64,000 nt of DNA from Pseudomonas sp. B6002 (GTDB lineage Bacteria; Pseudomonadota; Gammaproteobacteria; Pseudomonadales; Pseudomonadaceae). The stretch lies in assembly GCF_013385985.1 (NCBI RefSeq), contig NZ_JACAOY010000005.1:83084-147083 (forward strand), in the 5' to 3' direction. The position numbers and the translations under genes were made by a program. The notes beneath the pieces were generated by a model. It ran no database searches. It was given only the letters and a program-made list of their open reading frames with translations, and had not been told where the DNA came from. Positions 50,117-59,534 of this stretch are shown here, piece after piece; positions within the stretch are counted from its first letter, which is position 1; each line of letters begins with the position of its first letter.

Positions 50117-51136
50117 TTACCGTCCTTCCAGCAACGCCCCGGCCTGATCCAGCAGCGCCAGCGGATCACTCGCCTTATGAATATCCACCGACAACAACTG
50201 CCTGAACTTACGCGCTCCCGGAAACCCAGTCCCCAATCCCAAAATATGCCGAGTGACATGGTGCATCGAGCCACCGCTCGCCAAATGCTCGGCAATATAA
50301 GGCCGCAACTGCACCAATGCCTCGGCCCGGCTGATCACCGGCGCCGCACTGCCAAACAACTGCTGATCCACCTCCGCCAGCAAATACGGATTGTGATAAG
50401 CCTCGCGGCCCAACATCACCCCATCAAACGTCTGCAAATGCTCATGGCACTGCTCCAACGTCTTGATCCCACCGTTGAGGATGAACTCCAGCGCCGGGAA
50501 ATCCCGCTTCAACTGCGCCGCCACGTCATAGCGCAACGGCGGAATGTCGCGGTTCTCCTTCGGCGACAACCCCTCCAGGATCGCAATCCGCGCATGCACC
50601 GTAAAACTGGTGCACCCGGCATCCTTCACCGTCCCGACGAAATCACACAACTCGGCATAACTGTCCCGCCCATTGATCCCGATACGGTGCTTCACCGTCA
50701 CCGGAATCGACACCGCATCACGCATCGCCTTCACACAATCGGCCACCAGGGCAGGGTGCGCCATCAGGATCGCGCCGATCATGTTGTTCTGCACCCGGTC
50801 GCTCGGGCAGCCGACGTTCAGGTTCACTTCGTCGTAACCGGCGACCTCAGCCATGCGAGCGCAGGCGGCCAGATCAGCGGGGACGCTGCCGCCTAACTGA
50901 AGTGCAAGCGGGTGCTCGGCTTCGTTGTGACGCAGGAAGCGATCGTGGTCGCCGTGGAGGATGGCGCCGGTGGTGACCATCTCGGTGTAGAGCAGGGCGT
51001 GCTTGGAGAGCAGGCGCAGGAAGTAGCGGCAGTGGCGGTCCGTCCAATCCATCATGGGGGCAACGCTGAAGCGGCGTGACGGCTCTGAGCGGGAAGGGCT
51101 AGTGTTTACTGGAGATGCGGCTTTTTCGGAATTCAT
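50117..51136 (-). CDS. dusA: tRNA-dihydrouridine(20/20a) synthase DusA
   Basis: 339 residues; an FMN enzyme that reduces uridine 20/20a in tRNA. FMN-binding motif SVAPMMDWTDRHCR at residues ~24-37; catalytic Cys110 in NLNVGCPSDRVQNN; VKHRIGINGRDSY and ILNGGIKTLEQ follow. The 5' end of dusA is a recorded target of integrases. Here the truncated integrase starts 103 bases upstream of dusA, on the opposite strand. Confidence 0.95.
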   Translation of the reverse strand: MNSEKAASPVNTSPSRSEPSRRFSVAPMMDWTDRHCRYFLRLLSKHALLYTEMVTTGAILHGDHDRFLRHNEAEHPLALQLGGSVPADLAACARMAEVAGYDEVNLNVGCPSDRVQNNMIGAILMAHPALVADCVKAMRDAVSIPVTVKHRIGINGRDSYAELCDFVGTVKDAGCTSFTVHARIAILEGLSPKENRDIPPLRYDVAAQLKRDFPALEFILNGGIKTLEQCHEHLQTFDGVMLGREAYHNPYLLAEVDQQLFGSAAPVISRAEALVQLRPYIAEHLASGGSMHHVTRHILGLGTGFPGARKFRQLLSVDIHKASDPLALLDQAGALLEGR

Positions 51137-51238: not shown

Positions 51239-51559
51239 ATGGGCACGATCACAGCACGTAAGCGCAAGGACAACTCGACAGCCTACACGGCGCAGATACG
51301 GATCAATCGGGATGGCAAGACAGTTTATCAGGAAAGCCAAACCTTCGACCGTAAGCAGGTCGCCCAGGCCTGGATCAAGCGACGGGAGACCGAGCTGGCC
51401 CAGCCAAGTGCAATTGAGCGGGCGAAACGGAACGGAGTAACGATCAAGAAGATGATCGAGCAGTACCTGGATGAGTACGAGAAAATCCGGCCGCTGGGGA
51501 AGACCAAGAGCGCGATCGACGAAACTTGGCTACAGGTACGAATAGGGGAACAGGGGTAA
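51239..51559 (+). pseudogene. Phage integrase, N-terminal fragment
   Basis: 106 residues. The N-terminal arm-binding domain of a tyrosine recombinase is recognisable: MGTITARKRKDNSTAYTAQI, QTFDRKQVAQAWIKRRETEL and a SAM-like core-binding start EQYLDEYEKIRPLGKTK. The sequence then departs (about residue 95) and stops, so the catalytic R-H-R-Y residues are missing. It is probably the relic of an integrase targeting dusA. Confidence 0.85.
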
Positions 51560-51795
51560 GCGTTTCAATAGATCCCTTTGTCCCGCCAACGGCATCGGCC
51601 ATTGAAGTTTTCATTAGTACGCAATCGCCGCCTGGCGGAACGGTGCGGGAGGGACGAGCGGGAAGTCTCCTGGTTGGTCCGGTCTTGAGTATCACCAACG
51701 AAGTAAACCAGAGTGTAAGCGTCGTTATAACGCTGGACAGCGTTGGCCGGAGCTTGAATTTTGCTTGTAATAGTGACGCAGGCGTACTTGGCTGA
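51526..51795 (+). CDS. Unrecognised 89-residue frame in the element
   Basis: Frame starting at TTG inside the integrase end, in another frame. It encodes SIDPFVPPTASAIEVFISTQ... and a repetitive Ser/Val/Thr-rich tail (VSVVITLDSVGR), ending 20 bases before the tail-assembly gene. It could be a C-terminal remnant of a tail fibre or other structural protein, but I recognise no family. Its reality as a gene is doubtful. Confidence 0.3.
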   Translation: MATGTNRGTGVSVSIDPFVPPTASAIEVFISTQSPPGGTVREGRAGSLLVGPVLSITNEVNQSVSVVITLDSVGRSLNFACNSDAGVLG

Positions 51796-51815
51796 GAGAG
51801 GATGAAGGACAGCTT

Positions 51816-52177
51816 ATGAGCTATGCAATTTGTGTTGATCGGCCAGCATTCGTGCCGTGGGTAGCCCCGACGAGGTTGGGCCTGGCGAATATTGGAGCCA
51901 GTACCCGCTCGATAGTGTCCCGTCGTTGCCAGGGGCCGAAGAGTTCGCAGCACAAGAGCGTGCATGGCGAGACAGTGCGCTGTCATCGGTCATGTGGCTG
52001 CGCGAGCGTCATCGTGATCAATTGGAGATTGCAATAGAAGCCAGTCTCAACGGTGAGCCGTTCACGGGGCTGTTGCTCTACATGCAGGTACTGCGCGACT
52101 GGCCGCAATCACCGGACTTTCCGGCGACTGATCATTGCCCGATCGCCCCGGCCTGGATTGCCGATCAATCCCAATAA
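51816..52177 (+). pseudogene. Tail assembly chaperone, frameshifted
   Basis: ATG at 51816 gives MSYAICVDRPAFV; the rest of the family sequence, VGSPDEVGPGEYWSQYPLD... RHRDQLEIAIEASLNGEPF... WPQSPDFP, continues in another frame from about 51857 to 52177. One frameshift near 51850 therefore splits the gene. Related proteins accompany tail fibres of contractile tails and tailocins in Pseudomonas. The parts together give ~120 residues, a normal length. Confidence 0.7.
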
Positions 52178-52208
52178 CGCCCCACATTGATGGGGCGTCT
52201 TCATTTCC
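52178..52208 (+). terminator. Terminator-like hairpin after the tail assembly remnant
   Basis: CGCCCCA / TGGGGCG with loop CATTGA, followed by TCTTCATTT. A second weaker hairpin with T-rich tail follows at about 52240-52262. Confidence 0.6.
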
Positions 52209-52276
52209 GTTACGCGTAACAGGAACATCCCACGGCCTCGCTTATGCGGGGCGTTTTCGTTTCTGGAGATTGCCCT

Positions 52277-52890
52277 ATGAGTTTCTTTCACGGTGTGACC
52301 GTCACCAACGTGGACACCGGTGCGCGCGTTATCTCGCTGCCGTCGTCGTCGATTATTGGTCTGTGAGCCACCTTCGCCCCAGGCCAACGGTGACGGCCAA
52401 GCCTAACCCGTTGCTGATGATCACCCACGGAAGCGAAGCGGTGGCAGCTTGGGGCGGAGACGCGACGATCACTAAATCCATCAAGGCGACCTACATGCGC
52501 TCCAAGGCGGTGATCGTGGCGTGCGGCGTCGAGACGCTGGCCATCCCCGCTTTGCATACCTCGGCCATCATCGGTGGCGAACTGGCCGATGTCCAGCGTA
52601 CCGGTCTATAGGCGCTGTTGGACGGTAAGAGCCGCTTTAATGCCCAACCCCGTTTGCTGATTGCGTCAGGGCATAGCGCGACACAAGCCGTGGCTACTTC
52701 AATGGACGCGCTCGCCGACACGCTGCGCGGTCTGGCCATCGTCGAGGGTCCAAACATTACCGACGAGGCGGTCATTCTCTGCGCCAAAAGCTTCGTCAGC
52801 AAGCGTGTGTTTCTAGTCGAATTGCGTAATGAGTGCCAAAAGCTCGGCCAGGCTGCAAAGCTGATCGCAGCAGTGGCCTTAGGGCAGTAA
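52277..52890 (+). pseudogene. Phage tail sheath protein, broken
   Basis: MSFFHGVTVTNVDTGARVIS is the N-terminus of contractile tail sheath proteins and has a good GGAG site. After 29 residues a stop occurs (52364-52366), but homology continues in another frame with TAKPNPLLMITHGSEAVAAW... and AIVEGPNITDEAVILCAKSF. An in-frame TAG at 52609 (likely CAG to TAG) splits that part. After residues SKRVFLV the sequence departs from the sheath family, so the 3' part is missing or recombined. Non-functional. Confidence 0.78.
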
Positions 52891-53007
52891 TCGCCTGCTA
52901 TCCATATGATTTTCAAGATAAAAATGCTTGGCCCAAGGAGCGTAGCGAGAGGAGGTCAGATTTTTTATGTACAATGCTCGATACAGGGAATTTTGGATCC
53001 GTTACAT

Positions 53008-53232
53008 ATGGACGCAACAAAAGCATTTAACTTATTTCATCTGGCTTTTCGAGCCGCCAGCGATCCTGATACGACCAAGGGTGACTTGAGAGAGCTTTCG
53101 TTATCTAGTGATGAGGTGGTTCGAGGGGCTGTGGTAATGAATAAATCCACCCCTTCTGACGTTATATCTCGAATGCGCAAAGACGAAAGCTTTCATGTTC
53201 AGGAATGTATTTTAGCCAGGGAAGCCCTATAA
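53008..53232 (+). CDS. Small HEAT/LRV-like repeat protein
   Basis: 74 residues beginning MDATKAFNLFHLAFRAASDP. The segments LSLSSDEVVRGAVVMNKSTPSD and VISRMRKDESFHVQECILARE resemble leucine-rich-variant/HEAT repeats (the VRxxVxxNxxTPxxVxxxLxxD pattern). It has no ribosome site of strength; a longer frame from 52906 is open. It ends 3 bases before the formyltransferase start, so the two are likely one transcript. Function unknown. Confidence 0.55.
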   Translation: MDATKAFNLFHLAFRAASDPDTTKGDLRELSLSSDEVVRGAVVMNKSTPSDVISRMRKDESFHVQECILAREAL

Positions 53233-53235
53233 ATT

Positions 53236-54420
53236 ATGCGTACCATTTGTATTGCAGGAAAAAATAATATAGCGGTAGAAGGATTGCGCTATTTTGTAGA
53301 GAATCATCCAGATCTAAATGTCGTATTCATACCAAATGAAACCGACAATGGAGTTGACGGCTGGCAGCTATCTTTTAGAAAATATGCCTTGTCGGAAAAT
53401 GTTCAGCAGGTGAATCTTTGTGATCTGTACGATGTCGAAGATTTGCTATTTATTTCGCTTGAATTTGCAGAAATAATTAAGCCTGAAAAATTCAGGTCAT
53501 CTGAACTTTACAATATGCACTTTTCGCTTCTCCCTAAATACAAAGGCATGTACACCTCTGCGCTGCCACTTCTGCACGGTGAGAGAGAGTCAGGTGTGAC
53601 GCTGCATAAAATTGATGCGGGCATCGATACGGGTAACATTATCAGTCAGCTCAGTTTTGAAATTGGGTTCTCAGATAATGCCAGAGACCTGTATTTTAAA
53701 TACCTGTCTGCGGCTAAAGAACTGTTTCTCGATAATATTGGCTCGGTGCTAAGTGGCGATTTTGTATCCTATAAGCAGCCAAGTTTCGGAGCCTCCTATT
53801 ACTCTAAGTCCGCGATTAACTACTCAGCGCTTTCGATTGACTTCAGAAAGTGCGCGTTTGAAGTTGCCAATCAGTTCAGGGCTTTTGCTTTTAGGGAATA
53901 CCAAATGCCACGCTTTGGCTCGTGGCAGATTGACGGAACTTTAATCCTGGACACTAAAAGCAATCTCAAGCCAGGGTCGGTAGTCGGCGAGACTGGCACC
54001 GGGATTGTTGTTTCGACGATCGATTACGACTTGTTGCTGATTAAAGACTATTACCCCGCACTGTGGCAGGCCTCAGAGCATGGAGACGTTGCAGGGATCA
54101 AGAGCGCCCTTGAGTTTGTTGATGACGTGGACCGTAGGAATGCAAAGGGGTGGAGTGCGCTGATCATCGCCGCGTATTCAGGCAATTCTGAAGCTGTCGA
54201 ACTGCTTTTGGACAATGGTGCAAGTGTATCTGTCACCGGATATAACGGCACCACCCCTTTGATGTATGCATTCAGCAGCTACGAGCGCTCAAATGATAGC
54301 CGTGCGTTTTATGCCATCCTTGAGCGTGGAGCCGACCCGTCAGCGCCGGATAGCAAGGGCAAGACCATAAAGGACTATATGGTTGAGCGTGGCTGTATTG
54401 ACCTGATTAGTTACGTCTAG
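53236..54420 (+). CDS. Sugar N-formyltransferase with C-terminal ankyrin repeats (QdtF-like)
   Basis: 394 residues. Formyltransferase core 1-~200: NMHFSLLPKYKG gives catalytic Asn93 and His95, and LHKIDAGIDTGNII gives Asp131, with the loop typical of methionyl-tRNA formyltransferase relatives. A linker (~200-270) with FRAFAFREYQMPRFG is followed by ankyrin repeats from ~275 to the end: ALWQASEHGDVAGIKSALEF, WSALIIAAYSGNSEAVELLLDNGAS and TPLMYAFSS. This architecture is that of Providencia QdtF, which formylates dTDP-Qui3N. It is cytoplasmic and probably formylates a nucleotide-linked amino sugar. The gene is intact in otherwise decayed DNA. Confidence 0.75.
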   Translation: MRTICIAGKNNIAVEGLRYFVENHPDLNVVFIPNETDNGVDGWQLSFRKYALSENVQQVNLCDLYDVEDLLFISLEFAEIIKPEKFRSSELYNMHFSLLPKYKGMYTSALPLLHGERESGVTLHKIDAGIDTGNIISQLSFEIGFSDNARDLYFKYLSAAKELFLDNIGSVLSGDFVSYKQPSFGASYYSKSAINYSALSIDFRKCAFEVANQFRAFAFREYQMPRFGSWQIDGTLILDTKSNLKPGSVVGETGTGIVVSTIDYDLLLIKDYYPALWQASEHGDVAGIKSALEFVDDVDRRNAKGWSALIIAAYSGNSEAVELLLDNGASVSVTGYNGTTPLMYAFSSYERSNDSRAFYAILERGADPSAPDSKGKTIKDYMVERGCIDLISYV

Positions 54421-54788
54421 ACTGGCAGGATAAACTCAGGTCCATTATTCCGCACGTAGCCCACAGCAGTGTCGAGGCCTCGGCTGGTTCGCCCTGGTGC
54501 AGCATCATCTGCTCTGGGCGCCCCTTGGGCGTGACCGGGGCCAGCCATTTACGGGCCAGCCCTATGGGGCGACGATCGTGGATGTCCACCATACCGAAGG
54601 CGTCATCGGCATGGTTCGAGTGGCCCGTCGAGCTCAACTTGCCCCGGCGCATATTCAACGAATTATCGCCATCACCGATGCCGGCGACCGAGGAATGATT
54701 ACCTGGCGAGCATGCCAAGTTTACGTCGAAGACGTCGTGCGATGACTTCTCCCTGACTCAATTCAATCAACATTGCAAAGGAGTGCGA
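54421..54788. other. Unassigned stretch between formyltransferase and methylase remnant
   Basis: About 370 G+C-rich bases. A plus frame at 54497-54745 ends in MITWRACQVYVEDVVR, which looks protein-like and may be a phage remnant, but no family is recognised. An overlapping minus frame (54407-54718) has no support. Confidence 0.4.
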
Positions 54789-55060
54789 ATGAACAGCTCT
54801 ATCATCCGCTGGATGGGCGGTAAACGCCGCCTGGCCGACCGCCTTATCCCGCTCTTCCCGCTCCGCGAGTGCTACTTCGAGGTATTCGCATGCGGCGCCG
54901 CGCTCTACTCATGCGTCCTCGGGTGGCGCCGGTTGATGTTCTCAACGACATCAACTGCAACCTGGTGACGCTGTACCGCGTCGACGAGCCAAGCCCGCAC
55001 CGGCAAGCCGTATGGAGCCGCGAAGATTTAAGAAGTGGCTGCCGGGACGGCATCGGTTGA
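54789..55060 (+). pseudogene. Phage DNA adenine methylase, frameshifted and truncated
   Basis: MNSSIIRWMGGKRRLADRLI is the start of Dam-type N6-adenine methyltransferases, with the SAM motif in YFEVFACGAALYS. Homology then continues in another frame with APVDVLNDINCNLVTLYRVD after a shift near 54907. The catalytic DPPY motif is not reached before the frame ends, so the enzyme is inactive. AGGAG lies 8 bases before the ATG. Confidence 0.8.
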
Positions 55061-55213
55061 GGTGGAGCGAGTCTTGCGCATGTAAAATAGCAAGGTAACA
55101 TCTCGATTTATTGCTTTGGCTGCATCAGGTTGATCAACCTACCGTCTGCGCTAGAGGCGAGCAAGCAATTACAGTATGATGCATATTTTTTCGGCCTAGG
55201 CGATATAATTAGA

Positions 55214-55627
55214 ATGTTCGCTTCAACTAAGTTGGCCATTTATTATGCTATTTTCGCAATAATTGCGACTCTAGCAAACATAGGCGCTCAGGATCTGGTA
55301 ACCCGCGCCTACAGCGGCGCCTTCGATATTATGTTCTCTGTAGTTGTGGGTACGGGGGTCGGGCTTGTTGTCAAGTACATCTTAGACAAGCGTTACATAT
55401 TCCGCTTCCGGGCGAGCAGCGTCGCCCACGACACCAAGACCTTCGCTCTCTACACTATCATGGGGCTGGCAACGACCGTGGCCTTCTGGGGATTCGAGTT
55501 TGGCTTCCATCATTTATTCGGGACCAAGGAAATGCGGTATATGGGCGGCGTTCTTGGGCTTGCTATCGGATACCTTATCAAGTACCACCTTGACAAGCGT
55601 TACGTTTTTCGTTCGGAGGCTGTATGA
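55214..55627 (+). CDS. GtrA-like membrane protein (probable undecaprenyl-linked sugar flippase)
   Basis: 137 residues with four hydrophobic segments (GtrA family). MFASTKLAIYYAIFAIIATL, GTGVGLVVKYILDKRYIFRF and VLGLAIGYLIKYHLDKRYVF carry the family's repeated KYxLDKRYxF motif. GtrA proteins move undecaprenyl-phosphate-glucose across the inner membrane in O-antigen glucosylation. The ATG at 55214 is chosen; a TTG at 55130 would add 28 residues not typical of the family. The 240-base gap to the next gene contains no gtrB. Confidence 0.78.
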   Translation: MFASTKLAIYYAIFAIIATLANIGAQDLVTRAYSGAFDIMFSVVVGTGVGLVVKYILDKRYIFRFRASSVAHDTKTFALYTIMGLATTVAFWGFEFGFHHLFGTKEMRYMGGVLGLAIGYLIKYHLDKRYVFRSEAV

Positions 55628-55867
55628 GGCTGTTTACTACCTGATGGATTTGGAACGCCGATCCGTATCGCGCCCTCAGTTTTAATTATCCGTCTAAGGC
55701 CAAAGCTCTCGTTTGCACTGAAAAGCATGGCATTACTTTGTAATCCGCAATAAGAGCCTCAGAAAAAAACTGCAACCAGAAACTCAGTTTTTTTGAAGCG
55801 CTTCCCCTTTATTAAGTATGATCTCAAGTTGATCTCATTACTGCGTAATTAAAACACAGGAGTAACT

Positions 55868-57601
55868 ATGTTGTTTGCAATGGAAATGAGAAGCGTAATA
55901 AGAAGTCGAGCATGTCAGTCTGTATTGTTAGCTCTGATAGCGATTTCTATAACGTTGATTTTAGGAAAGCCTCCAAGCTTATTTGTGGTTGGTTCAGACA
56001 AAGATCAAAGCAAGATTGAAAGAGTGGTAAATGCTCCACTTCATTTAGATGACGATGTCATGATATCGCTTAGATCTGGTTATATGATTCGAGAGACTGG
56101 TATTCCCTCATTTAATAGAAGTGATAAGGCGCAGCCGTCGACATCATACATCGCACCCTATGTATATGCAGCGTTAAGCGGTTTTTTTAGCGGGAATGTA
56201 GCAACATTATTGTATGCTGTTCTTGGCTTGATGGCCGTTTTTTTTACATTTTTAATTATACTGAAAAACTCTTCAAGTTTGATTAATGCTGGGCTAATGG
56301 TATTTCTTTTGGCGCTCAGTAAAACCAATCTTGAGTTTGCATTAAATGGCTGGGATCATTTATTTCAAGCTTTGTTTTTGTGTTTTGCGGTTGTTGTTGC
56401 CTTAAAGAATCAGCAGACTGCTCTGTCCTTGTTAATACTTTCTGTTGTTTTATCTATGGGGGCTCTATACAGGCCTGATGGGTTGTTGATCGCTCTTGGT
56501 ATTATTTTGGCAGCAATGCCGGTTTGTGAGAATAACAAAATCAATGTCAATAAAGCGCTGCTATTGATAGTTCCTTTTGTTCTTGTTGTTGGGGTGGTCG
56601 TTTATCTAAACTATAAATACTTTGGCTACGTCACGCCAACAACTGCCAGACTAAAGCTTGGCGCAAGTCCCGGCCTGCTTTATTCGTTTAAATATTTTTT
56701 GGTGAATGGGTTTTTAAGTTTTTCTTCGATAACATTTATATTTGTGGTTTCAGCTTTTTTTGTATTGATGCGCAAGGTGATTTCCTTTGATTATAGAGTG
56801 TATGCGATAATATCATCTGTGGCTCTAACCTTGCTTATTACATTTTTCAATAGTGATGTTTTTCCAGGCGCTAGGCTTTATTGGGTGTCGGCAACGGTTT
56901 TGGCAACATTGTTTGCATTGTTAAGTCCGAGAGTGTTTCGTTTTGATTTAAAGGGGATAGTTGTTTTAAATGCAGATACTCCGAATCAGAAGCATATCAA
57001 ATATCTGCTTGGTTTGATTTTTACCTTGTTTTTCGTTTTGACGTTAGTGAAGGGTTCTGTAAACGCTATTTATGATAATGTTGAAAAAGGTACCATTACC
57101 TCTAAGAATTCTTATGATAGTTACACTGGTCAGCAATACTTGATCACGAAATGGATTAAGGCGAATCTATCTCCTTCGGACGGCGCAATTGGTTTTTACT
57201 GGCTTGGTCTTGCGTATCACCTTCCTGAATTTGAAGCTGCTGATTTTTTAGGTAAGGCTGATGAAGTAATCGCACAATCTCCAGTTAGATGGGGACCTCC
57301 GGGCCATAATAAGTGGAATGAAGAAGTCACTTTGAAAAAATGGAATCCACAAGTGATTATTCCACCAGGTAATACAGATCCAACGAGGGATGGAATGACT
57401 GAGTACGCACAAAAAGCTATGAGTGATCGCGTTCCGTATGCTTTTGCTCCGAGTTTGATAGTAAATAAATCTGTGAATGAAAATTATCTTTATTGTTATC
57501 TTGATAATGGAGATCTTCCATATAAAGATACTTGGGGTTTCTTGGTTAGAAAAGATATTTATCTTAAGCAGCGTGATAAATTAATTTGTAATGGTGTATA
57601 G
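55868..57601 (+). CDS. Large membrane protein, GT-C glycosyltransferase-like
   Basis: 577 residues with ~11 membrane helices, strongly A+T-rich. The first extracytoplasmic loop has LHLDDDVMISLRSGYMIRET (DDD at 61-63), then GIPSFN and a periplasmic TSYIAPYVYAALSGF, resembling the GT-C fold of ArnT/PMT-type and mycobacterial arabinosyltransferases, which use a lipid-linked sugar. A periplasmic C-terminal domain runs from ~415. AGGAG is 7 bases before the ATG. With gtrA upstream it probably transfers a sugar to O-antigen or another surface glycan. The exact acceptor is unknown. Confidence 0.6.
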   Translation: MLFAMEMRSVIRSRACQSVLLALIAISITLILGKPPSLFVVGSDKDQSKIERVVNAPLHLDDDVMISLRSGYMIRETGIPSFNRSDKAQPSTSYIAPYVYAALSGFFSGNVATLLYAVLGLMAVFFTFLIILKNSSSLINAGLMVFLLALSKTNLEFALNGWDHLFQALFLCFAVVVALKNQQTALSLLILSVVLSMGALYRPDGLLIALGIILAAMPVCENNKINVNKALLLIVPFVLVVGVVVYLNYKYFGYVTPTTARLKLGASPGLLYSFKYFLVNGFLSFSSITFIFVVSAFFVLMRKVISFDYRVYAIISSVALTLLITFFNSDVFPGARLYWVSATVLATLFALLSPRVFRFDLKGIVVLNADTPNQKHIKYLLGLIFTLFFVLTLVKGSVNAIYDNVEKGTITSKNSYDSYTGQQYLITKWIKANLSPSDGAIGFYWLGLAYHLPEFEAADFLGKADEVIAQSPVRWGPPGHNKWNEEVTLKKWNPQVIIPPGNTDPTRDGMTEYAQKAMSDRVPYAFAPSLIVNKSVNENYLYCYLDNGDLPYKDTWGFLVRKDIYLKQRDKLICNGV

Positions 57602-57681
57602 TTTGTTGGCTGCTGAAGAGGCCGGACATATTTCCAGAGCGAGTAGCAGCTAAGATTTAGCTTGTGCGAGCTTACGCGTTT

Positions 57682-57714
57682 CACACATGAACTGTTGCAG
57701 GTTCATGTGTGTTT
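57682..57714 (+). terminator. Hairpin downstream of the GT-C gene
   Basis: CACACATGAAC / GTTCATGTGTG with a short loop and a short T-run (TTTCGG), ~80 bases after the stop. A weak terminator candidate. Confidence 0.55.
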
Positions 57715-58234
57715 CGGTGTATAGCCTTTCAGACTTTCCTATCGATACATGATAGGCATTCCTTTCTGCTCCGATTTGTGGGCTTTAAAGGCAAACATGA
57801 CGTTCTCGTTCAGTTTCACTAAGCCAGGGCTATTGTTGAGCTTTGGGTTGTCGCGGCTGTTTTAACAGGGGCGGCACGACGGAATTCGTCGAAATCTTAT
57901 AGTGCTCATCATGAGGCTTGCATGCGCCTAGTTTGAGGCCTCTATGCCCAACAGGCCGCTTTCGAAGATTCGATGCCGTCCGCGCTTTAGTCACCCAGGC
58001 TTGCTTCGCAGCGGTAGGCGTCATACGGCGACGCTTTTTCGAAAATTTGCTTTGGGTCGAAATTATTTATCTTGGGTTGATACAAACCGATGACGGAGCA
58101 TGCTCTAAACTATAGATTCCTTGAATATCAGTTTCAACTCAGTGCGAGAGGGCGGGTGGTGAGATGCCAGCTAACGAAGTATTATCATAAATATGCAACG
58201 AGTCGAATAAACCTCACCTTCTAAGTAGCGGGTT
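57715..58234. other. Unassigned stretch before IS66 remnants
   Basis: About 520 bases. Frames on either strand at 57830-58115 (e.g. minus 57830-58024, with RKRPVGHRGLKLGACKPHDEHYK) look like fragments but no family is recognised. No RNA gene is seen. Confidence 0.4.
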
Positions 58235-58895
58235 TTATGTTTGTCGTGACATCTCTAATGAGCAGTTCCACAGTAGCAAGGCTTCGAATTCTTCTACTGC
58301 GCCTGCTTGCGGTAACCGTTCAAGTGTGCGGCGCAGCCACGCGTAGGGCTCTTTGCCGTTGACTTTGGCTGTCTCGACCAAACTTTAAAGTTGATCGCTG
58401 GCCGTCGCGCCTTTGGGCGTGTCGCTGAACAGCTAGTTCTTGCGCCGTCACCTGAGGGTGCGTTTTCTCCAGCCAGGCGTGTAATTGCGCCAGGACTGGC
58501 AGACTGTTTTGCTGTCGACCTTCATGGCGAAGTTCATCGCCGGCTTTTTTTAAATCTCGCTCGGCACCGTACAGTTTGTTGATCCAACTCAAGGCTATAT
58601 CGGAACGCCCGTTTTTTCTCCTGAATTGCACTTTTTGCGCCCAGACACACTTGCGTCGCACTTGGATCCAGCAGCCTAAACGTTCGAAACCAGCCTGCGC
58701 GCCCAAGGCGTATAGCCGGCGTAATCGTCGGTCATCAAATAGCCGCGATAACCTTCGAGTAGGCGCGACGGCACTTCTTGCGCTCGGCCGGTCGAGTAAT
58801 CAAAGAGAATCACTGGCTGATTCTGCGGTCCACACGGTTTGTACCTTGCGGATGTGTTTTATCACGCGGATCTGCATCGGCATGATTTCTAGCTG
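58235..58895 (-). pseudogene. IS66-family transposase TnpC, degenerate
   Basis: Read on the minus strand in several frames: QPVILFDYSTGRAQEVPSRL and LEGYRGYLMTDDYAGYTPWA (DDE-type catalytic region), GCWIQVRRKCVWAQKVQFRRKNGRSDIALSWI, INKLYGAERDLKKAGDELRH, and the C-terminal ETAKVNGKEPYAWLRRTLER with LLLWNCSLEM and stop at 58235. Frameshifts and an in-frame stop separate the parts, and the N-terminal half of TnpC is absent. The element is dead. Confidence 0.82.
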
Positions 58896-59101
58896 CTCGC
58901 TGGTTTCTTAAAGCCGTTGCGTTCCCAATACAAAATCTTCACCCGATCGCGGGGTTTGTTGAGAAAGATGAAAGGCACCGGATTGAGTACCGACACTTTG
59001 ATATCAAACTGCACCAGCGCGGCTAGGCCGTCGATGCATTTTGGATGGTCTACTGGTTTAGGGTAGAGGTACACTTTTTCAACTTTGGTATCGGGACGCA
59101 T
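58889..59101 (-). pseudogene. IS66-family TnpB (Orf2), truncated
   Basis: MRPDTKVEKVYLYPKPVDHPKCIDGLAALVQFDIKVSVL and FLNKPRDRVKILYWERNGF match the IS66 TnpB helper protein. It stops early after ERNGF, near the TnpC remnant, and lacks the C-terminal ~45 residues. Upstream tnpA is not present. Confidence 0.85.
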
Positions 59102-59129
59102 GATGGCCGCTGGCTTTTGAAATAGATCG

Positions 59130-59534
59130 GTGGCACAGCATCAGGCATCAAATCGCGGTGTTGAATGTGGGGTTCGTGGAGCGGTTATCAAGGTCACGTT
59201 CAATCCGCCTTTTGCTTCAAATGCCTCGCCCTCTGATGCGAAGCTTCACGCAGCGGCTCAACGAGCAATTCATCATTACTTGCCCGAATCTGACGATGGC
59301 ACGCCAGTAGATCAGCCATTCAGAAACCTATTCTCCGTAAGCCCCAACACCGACACCCTCCTAGCCAACGCCTTCGAGAACCTCGCCTCCGCCAACCAAA
59401 TGGCCGCCACCCTGGCGTTCGACCTAGAAGAACCCCAACGCGCCATCGTCTTGGGCATCCAGCAACTCATCGACTTGGGCTCTCTGCTCGTCGACCGCGC
59501 CCAAGAGCAAGTCGCGCCAGCCGCCACGGCCTGA
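59130..59534 (+). CDS. DUF6124 family protein with unusual start
   Basis: The family (often MIKVTPNPP... at the N-terminus) is recognised from VIKVTFNPPFASNASPSDAKLHAAAQRAIHHYLP and LFSVSPNTDTLLANAFENLASANQM... through AIVLGIQQLIDLGSLLVDRA. Where an ATG is expected the codon is GTT (VIKV), at about 59184; the only upstream start is a GTG at 59130 that would add 18 residues with no family match. It may have lost its start codon beside the IS66 remnants. Probable size is 116-134 residues; function unknown. Confidence 0.65.
   Translation: MAQHQASNRGVECGVRGAVIKVTFNPPFASNASPSDAKLHAAAQRAIHHYLPESDDGTPVDQPFRNLFSVSPNTDTLLANAFENLASANQMAATLAFDLEEPQRAIVLGIQQLIDLGSLLVDRAQEQVAPAATA

Follow-up and report, generated by a model that had tools for sequence, protein, structure and literature searches.

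N-formyltransferases are established enzymes of O-antigen synthesis, an example treated in PMC10924466 being WbtJ, which acts on dTDP-4-amino-4,6-dideoxyglucose (dTDP-Qui4N). As for the enzymes that modify 3-amino sugars, the closest described relatives of the protein discussed here are FdtF, the dTDP-Fuc3N N-formyltransferase of Salmonella enterica O60 (PDB 5uij, 5uik and 5uin, with TDP-Fuc3N in 5uik), and QdtF, the dTDP-Qui3N N-formyltransferase of Providencia alcalifaciens (PDB 4xcz, with TDP-Qui3N, and 4xd1); the Salmonella gene lies in an O-antigen cluster. Shorter relatives are WlaRD of Campylobacter jejuni (PDB 4lxq) and an enzyme of Helicobacter canadensis (PDB 7n7a); the fold search aligns both with the N-terminal part of the protein described here, over about 275 columns at 44% identity, and their chains of 270-280 residues are devoid of the ankyrin part, the phmmer match ending at about residue 234.

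In the window, the 64,000-nucleotide stretch of Pseudomonas DNA analysed here, an open reading frame of this type starts with ATG and has no internal stop over its 394 codons (Table 1), while the one frame read on the opposite strand contains many stops. Two Pfam families exceed their curated cut-offs, Formyl_trans_N (8e-15, residues 90-166) and Ank_2 (7e-13, residues 276-371). In phmmer searches of the PDB, the protein matched FdtF (5uij, 5e-96, 325 bits, 41% identity) and QdtF (4xcz, 3e-93, 316 bits, 40% identity) colinearly over residues 4-393, values that are not compatible with a chance match. The catalytic residues Asn93, His95 and Asp131 do not vary among the 22 sequences aligned, the query included, and Trp306, shared with both enzymes, aligns with the position changed from Trp to Ala in the W305A variants of QdtF (4xd1) and FdtF (5uin); this position belongs to the second, ankyrin-borne nucleotide-sugar site. 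The predicted structure, built from 20 sequences, had a mean pLDDT of 95 with no segment below 50 and contained helices between residues 273 and 384; its best Foldseek matches were the FdtF and QdtF structures, colinear over the whole length (3e-46, TM 0.81, rmsd about 4). Judged from its sequence, the protein is almost certainly a full-length relative of the sugar 3-N-formyltransferases FdtF and QdtF, and this is its predicted enzyme class. It leans weakly towards FdtF, and the gap between 325 and 316 bits is too slight to decide the substrate. The first-pass annotation had proposed an intact formyltransferase/ankyrin protein of QdtF-like architecture with these three catalytic residues, and had regarded a loss of sugar-binding residues as an argument against it; the architecture and the residues are as described, and the ankyrin Trp is kept.

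Table 1. Features of the island next to dusA; positions are those of the window, and the edges of the IS66 sequence are approximate.
Feature	Position	Strand	Evidence or remark
dusA, integration site of the remnant	50117..51136	-	Pfam Dus 7e-88; empty-site comparison
Truncated dusA-type integrase	51239..51559	+	PHROG integrase 4e-5; DNA similarity to the dusA prophages of genomes G005 and G021
Tail fibre 3' end, tail fibre assembly gene, tail sheath 5' part, scrap of a further tail gene	51535..52852	+	Frameshifts and stops
108-aa ORF, start codon uncertain	52906..53232	+	Stops 3 nt short of the formyltransferase ATG
Sugar N-formyltransferase with C-terminal ankyrin repeats (QdtF/FdtF type)	53236..54420	+	Intact, 394 aa
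Catalytic stretch Asn93 - His95 - Asp131	53512..53628	+	Residues checked in alignment
Ankyrin repeats, residues 276-371, containing Trp306	54061..54348	+	Pfam; structure and sequence alignment
Remains of a phage gene and an Rz-like spanin gene	54477..54745	+	Phage gene match lies inside minus-strand ORFs L096:17105-17812 and L102:6329-7009
Prophage Dam-type methylase, 5' fragment, frameshifted	54783..54983	+	Follows the formyltransferase
GtrA-family membrane protein, apparently intact	55130..55627	+	NF037976, 188 bits (cut-off 50)
577-aa protein, rich in hydrophobic stretches by eye	55868..57601	+	G+C 0.377
Decayed IS66 sequence, right edge of the island	58245..59110	.	TnpB_IS66 6e-15 (ORF 58889-59101); DNA matches to repeats in other Pseudomonas

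Regarding its position, the gene lies within a prophage remnant, with phage scraps on both sides, so that the decayed phage region recognised at first pass is confirmed by the truncated integrase at dusA and by the broken tail-fibre assembly, tail sheath, spanin and Dam genes. The tail segment (51535-52820) matches a prophage on another contig (C48) of the same genome, with 83% identity over 1290 bp. In another Pseudomonas genome (G017), dusA is about 1 kb from the gene found here at the right of the island, versus about 8.2 kb in the window, which identifies the island as an insertion; by the same comparison, this right-hand gene (59325-59534) is apparently short of its 5' end, lost to the IS66 debris. 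A search for an attachment-site duplication gave no usable long direct repeat flanking the region and, because IS66 debris also occupies the right edge, the ends of the element are not placed exactly. According to PMC4482086, dusA is a known site of prophages and islands whose cargo is mixed. In the dusA prophage of genome G021, dam is immediately followed by genes for a family-2 glycosyltransferase and a FAD-dependent oxidoreductase (L099:17020-19226), a candidate surface-changing cargo; this type of prophage can thus carry glycan-type genes near its right end, and at the same spot the prophages of G005, G011 and G016 have other genes, or none of glycan type.

The G+C content of the formyltransferase gene is 0.458, compared with 0.607 for dusA and 0.591 for the window. 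The 108-aa ORF that precedes it is similar in this respect (0.434) and gave one weak match to a leucine-rich-repeat variant (E 0.11), below the cut-off. The idea that this ORF travels with the formyltransferase family was rejected, as a comparison with the ORFs of the other loci gave no relative at E 0.01, copies of the window aside.

As for the substrate, none of the scanned neighbours was recognised as an amino-sugar gene, and the closest one of glycan type is that of the GtrA protein, in agreement with the first reading of this DNA, which had left two explanations: a precursor made elsewhere in the genome or a different substrate. The former is the better alternative, because a dTDP-3-amino-3,6-dideoxyhexose pathway is present on two other contigs, C17 and C4, available in the genome and not adjacent to the formyltransferase. 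The only FdtA-family match of the genome (C17:27832-28221) adjoins one of its two strong DegT aminotransferases, in an operon with the order isomerase, N-acetyltransferase, aminotransferase, ABC flippase, 297-aa protein, family-2 glycosyltransferase and 456-aa protein. The best PDB match of the isomerase is 2pa7 (1e-39), while the N-acetyltransferase matches 4mzu (4e-67) and the aminotransferase matches 5u1z (1e-129), which is WlaRG, the C3-aminotransferase of dTDP-Fuc3NAc/Qui3NAc synthesis according to PMC7725333. The flippase is PglK-like, below the cut-off of the PglK model, and no family was found for the 297-aa and 456-aa proteins. Other neighbours of the operon are, on below-cut-off matches, presumed to be WbpM-, WbpL- and FnlB/C-like. 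On C4, rmlB and rmlA adjoin each other, both over their cut-offs. Everything in this gene set points to a host able to produce a dTDP-3-acetamido-3,6-dideoxyhexose unaided, with the 3-amino sugar needed by the formyltransferase as a likely intermediate of this path. Which hexose is involved is a finer question: the isomerase is nearer to FdtA than to QdtA, yet it has Arg at both of two positions that are Arg/His in FdtA and Tyr/Arg in QdtA, hence its residues are mixed.

The reading that we prefer, with a probability of roughly 60%, is that the window protein is a dTDP-3-amino-3,6-dideoxyhexose 3-N-formyltransferase that takes the precursor of the C17 path in competition with the N-acetyltransferase, leaving the O-antigen partly or wholly N-formylated. 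RmlA and RmlB would supply dTDP-4-keto-6-deoxyglucose, which the isomerase and the aminotransferase of C17 would convert into dTDP-Fuc3N or dTDP-Qui3N; the 3-amino group, normally acetylated by the host N-acetyltransferase, would then be contended for by the formyltransferase with formyl-tetrahydrofolate as the donor, and the O-antigen repeat built by the C17 operon would carry N-formyl instead of N-acetyl groups, or a mixture of both. The enzyme itself would have been carried in and left by the prophage at dusA, or its gene would have landed in the remnant later. Given that the pathway has its own N-acetyltransferase, the formyltransferase would compete for an intermediate and not complete an unfinished path. 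From the genes we infer the activity, its substrate, the competition, the incorporation into the O-antigen and any benefit, such as altered phage adsorption or antigenicity; the acetyl-to-formyl switch has the same status, and the O-antigen glycosyltransferases, flippase or polymerase might reject the N-formyl sugar. A precedent for the competition comes from a bacterium with an N-formyl-perosamine O-polysaccharide: as described in PMC5981137, introduction of a heterologous N-acetyltransferase gave a polymer with both groups, and the added enzyme could stand in for the deleted formyltransferase. Acyl competition can accordingly remodel an O-polysaccharide, in that case in the opposite direction.

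The distribution of the genes was compared among 399 Pseudomonas genomes, seven of which, the source included, have a full-length relative of the formyltransferase; the other six proteins are 38-44% identical to it. All seven gave a strong FdtA match, at 2e-30 or better, versus 90 of the 392 others (Fisher 4e-5), a figure that leaves out 24 genomes with only weak FdtA hits. This co-occurrence is largely operon linkage, because the FdtA gene is close to the formyltransferase in five of the six other genomes (by coordinates in G351) and about 36 kb away in the sixth, G080; an aminotransferase is in the formyltransferase stretch in all six. The C17 operon, in turn, has counterparts of all its seven genes in genome G219 (76-96% protein identity), of six in G044 and of three to four in the stretches examined of G370, G334, G018 and G130, and the formyltransferase is absent from all of these six best-matching genomes; the operon thus occurs without it in related bacteria, and here the formyltransferase is an addition.

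Regarding the wider survey, it covered 28 distinct genome loci (29 rows, since L057 duplicates L081), at least 23 of which include a gene of FdtA type or of DegT type; neither was detected in L063, L064, L066, L075 and L076, the last being only a weak match to the query. It should be noted that such counts are lower bounds, as the simple gene finder misses genes (for example the FdtA gene of G351), each gene was tagged with its best marker only and some stretches end at contig ends; besides, the markers named rmlA and rmlB are one protein, an RmlB, and are read as RmlB type only. At six loci (L059, L067, L068, L073, L081 and L086), the order is isomerase, formyltransferase, aminotransferase, so that the formyltransferase occupies the position of the N-acetyltransferase of C17. 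Mutual exclusion of formyl- and acetyltransferase genes was also considered and dropped, since several loci hold both: in L063, L066, L071 and L072 an acetyltransferase-type gene is right beside the formyltransferase, which in these four is short, with a match that stops at about residue 270 or earlier, and in L056 and L062 it is a few kb away, or less. At L079:8109-8996 there is a distant Formyl_trans_N protein, presumably the siderophore enzyme PvdF, with an adjoining large ORF that resembles a peptide synthetase.

As for the origin of the gene, a tree built from 30 formyltransferase domains places the window protein in a group with a Treponema metagenome-assembled genome (L075), three betaproteobacterial sequences and one viral sequence (L108), with a support of 93/91, just short of the star of the tool; sequences of Pseudomonas, Acinetobacter, Photorhabdus and Paraperlucidibaca form a separate group (99/98). 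This place apart from the Pseudomonas group suggests that the gene probably arrived from outside the Pseudomonas pool sampled. The closest relative, that of Treponema, is 60% identical over the first 245 residues; at L075:10001-11184 it covers two overlapping ORFs and stands alone amid unrelated genes, in a stretch devoid of pathway markers. Since the nearest relatives in the tree are not Pseudomonas O-antigen enzymes and that of L075 is an orphan, the substrate could differ in detail. Among phage records, 23 had a match, none covering 80% of the query and all below 60% identity; in the viral contigs, the protein alone found no match and a profile found nine loci, the best 52% identical over residues 3-271. 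No close copy was thus present in the phages, plasmids or viral contigs searched, and for this reason the gene may have landed in the remnant after the phage.

An extension of the preferred reading, held tentatively and at clearly less than even odds, is that the formyltransferase came with the prophage and brought about lysogenic conversion by an acetyl-to-formyl exchange at the building-block stage; the gene would then have persisted after the loss of the phage on account of an advantage that the altered surface gives the host.

Of the alternatives, the one that survives best, unlikely as we consider it, is that the gene is an inert relic, open by luck or recently arrived and unexpressed, with an O-antigen that is N-acetylated only. 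Consistent with this, it sits among broken phage genes, the promoter-like sites in 52600-58000 (11, versus 8.6 ± 2.7 in shuffled sequences) show no excess over chance, and there is no close orthologue for a selection test, the best being the 60% identical relative over 245 residues. The state of the gene argues otherwise, as the remnant phage coding DNA, about 1.5 kb in the alignment, has a net five disabling changes, a count that omits paired indels that cancel, versus zero in the 1185 bp of the formyltransferase; this outcome has a chance of about 2% if the gene shares the rate and age of the scraps, and the argument is weaker if it arrived after the phage had decayed. In addition, the catalytic residues are retained and the full-length model is confident.

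Next to the formyltransferase, the island has an orphan gtr-like pair at 55130-57601, consisting of the GtrA-family gene (G+C 0.492) and that of the 577-aa protein, with no gtrB between them; the latter protein gave no family above cut-off, no phage match and no match in the 199 other Pseudomonas genomes searched, and as a guess we take it to be possibly a glycosyltransferase of GtrC type. The enzyme might thus serve a glycan cassette of the island and provide a formylated side sugar for the finished O-antigen, comparable to the glucose added by gtr-type converting phages, an explanation that we regard as improbable. The score of the GtrA-family protein, the G+C content of the two genes, below that of the window like that of the formyltransferase, and the cargo after dam in the related prophage of G021 are in its favour; the missing gtrB-type transferase, the lack of any recognised relative of the 577-aa protein in the searched sets and the phage scraps that part the formyltransferase from the pair speak against it. 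It is equally improbable that the formylated sugar is destined for flagellin or another glycoprotein glycan in place of the O-antigen: the relatives in the betaproteobacterial loci L054 and L061 are beside very large proteins, repeat-like by eye, but both loci also have FdtA- and DegT-type genes near, and the only FdtA match of the source genome belongs to an operon with a flippase and a glycosyltransferase, beside the genes presumed to be WbpM- and WbpL-like.

Finally, a different substrate, for instance a 4-amino sugar or formylmethionyl-tRNA, is very hard to credit, since Fmt, ArnA and enzymes of 4-N sugars (VioF, for example) share the formyltransferase fold but align in the fold search with about 20% identity over about 230-300 columns (41% and about 394 for FdtF), methionyl-tRNA formyltransferase is far behind in phmmer (6e-20 versus 5e-96), the NCBIfam fmt model fails (68.1 bits, cut-off 201.5) and the genome holds six further Formyl_trans_N matches. 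Hence, the nearest homologues are not of the tRNA type. Of the three findings that the first-pass annotation had named as contrary to its proposal (homologues of tRNA or non-sugar type, loss of the sugar-binding residues, lack of an amino-sugar pathway), none applies, and the annotation was correct in its observations and largely so in their interpretation; of its two explanations for the orphan gene, the precursor from elsewhere stands and the different substrate is the less favoured.

In conclusion, the type of enzyme is already known, and what is unusual is its place in a phage remnant together with the likely acetyl-to-formyl switch. The interest is in the setting, that of a lone gene in the remains of a mobile element that could swap a single acyl group of a surface sugar. 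If the preferred reading is right, one mobile gene could alter the surface antigen and phage receptor with the amine of the host and no new pathway, and mixed N-formyl/N-acetyl O-antigens would be missed by serotype predictions from the O-antigen locus alone; the switch, if real, would also bear on whether phage remnants alter surface glycans after the death of the phage.

Compared with the described systems, the window gene differs from those of FdtF and QdtF in being an orphan in a phage remnant. WbtJ likewise acts on a dTDP sugar in O-antigen synthesis; it differs in that its substrate is a 4-N and not a 3-N sugar and in being encoded in its own O-antigen locus (PMC10924466). Among viral sequences, the marine contigs L107-L113, whose viral nature rests on the source collection and on ORF reading, encode a short sugar formyltransferase with a domain 38-52% identical and a DegT-type aminotransferase gene close by; there the match stops at or before residue 271, with no ankyrin part, and other nucleotide-sugar genes are along, so that these are not orphans. 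An oxidoreductase of Gfo/Idh type was seen by eye in these contigs, and L109, L110, L111 and L113 also have an RmlB-type gene. The element itself is like the dusA-associated integrases and islands, for which PMC4482086 places the site at the 5' end of dusA with the integrase adjoining; in the window the integrase is truncated, hence autonomous movement of the element is not expected.

As for the seroconverting prophages, the parts concerned of PMC8787464 list phage genes that alter the O-antigen, namely gtrABC of P22, the O-acetyltransferases of Sf6 and Sf101, the cassette of D3 and the polymerase inhibitor of epsilon15; the term "formyl" does not occur in the main text of that source, and the open-licence literature gave no paper on a phage-borne formyltransferase in seroconversion. 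Those prophages operate through glucosylation, O-acetylation, gene cassettes or a polymerase inhibitor, whereas the N-formyltransferase of the window would act on a nucleotide-sugar precursor, in competition with an N-acyltransferase of the host.
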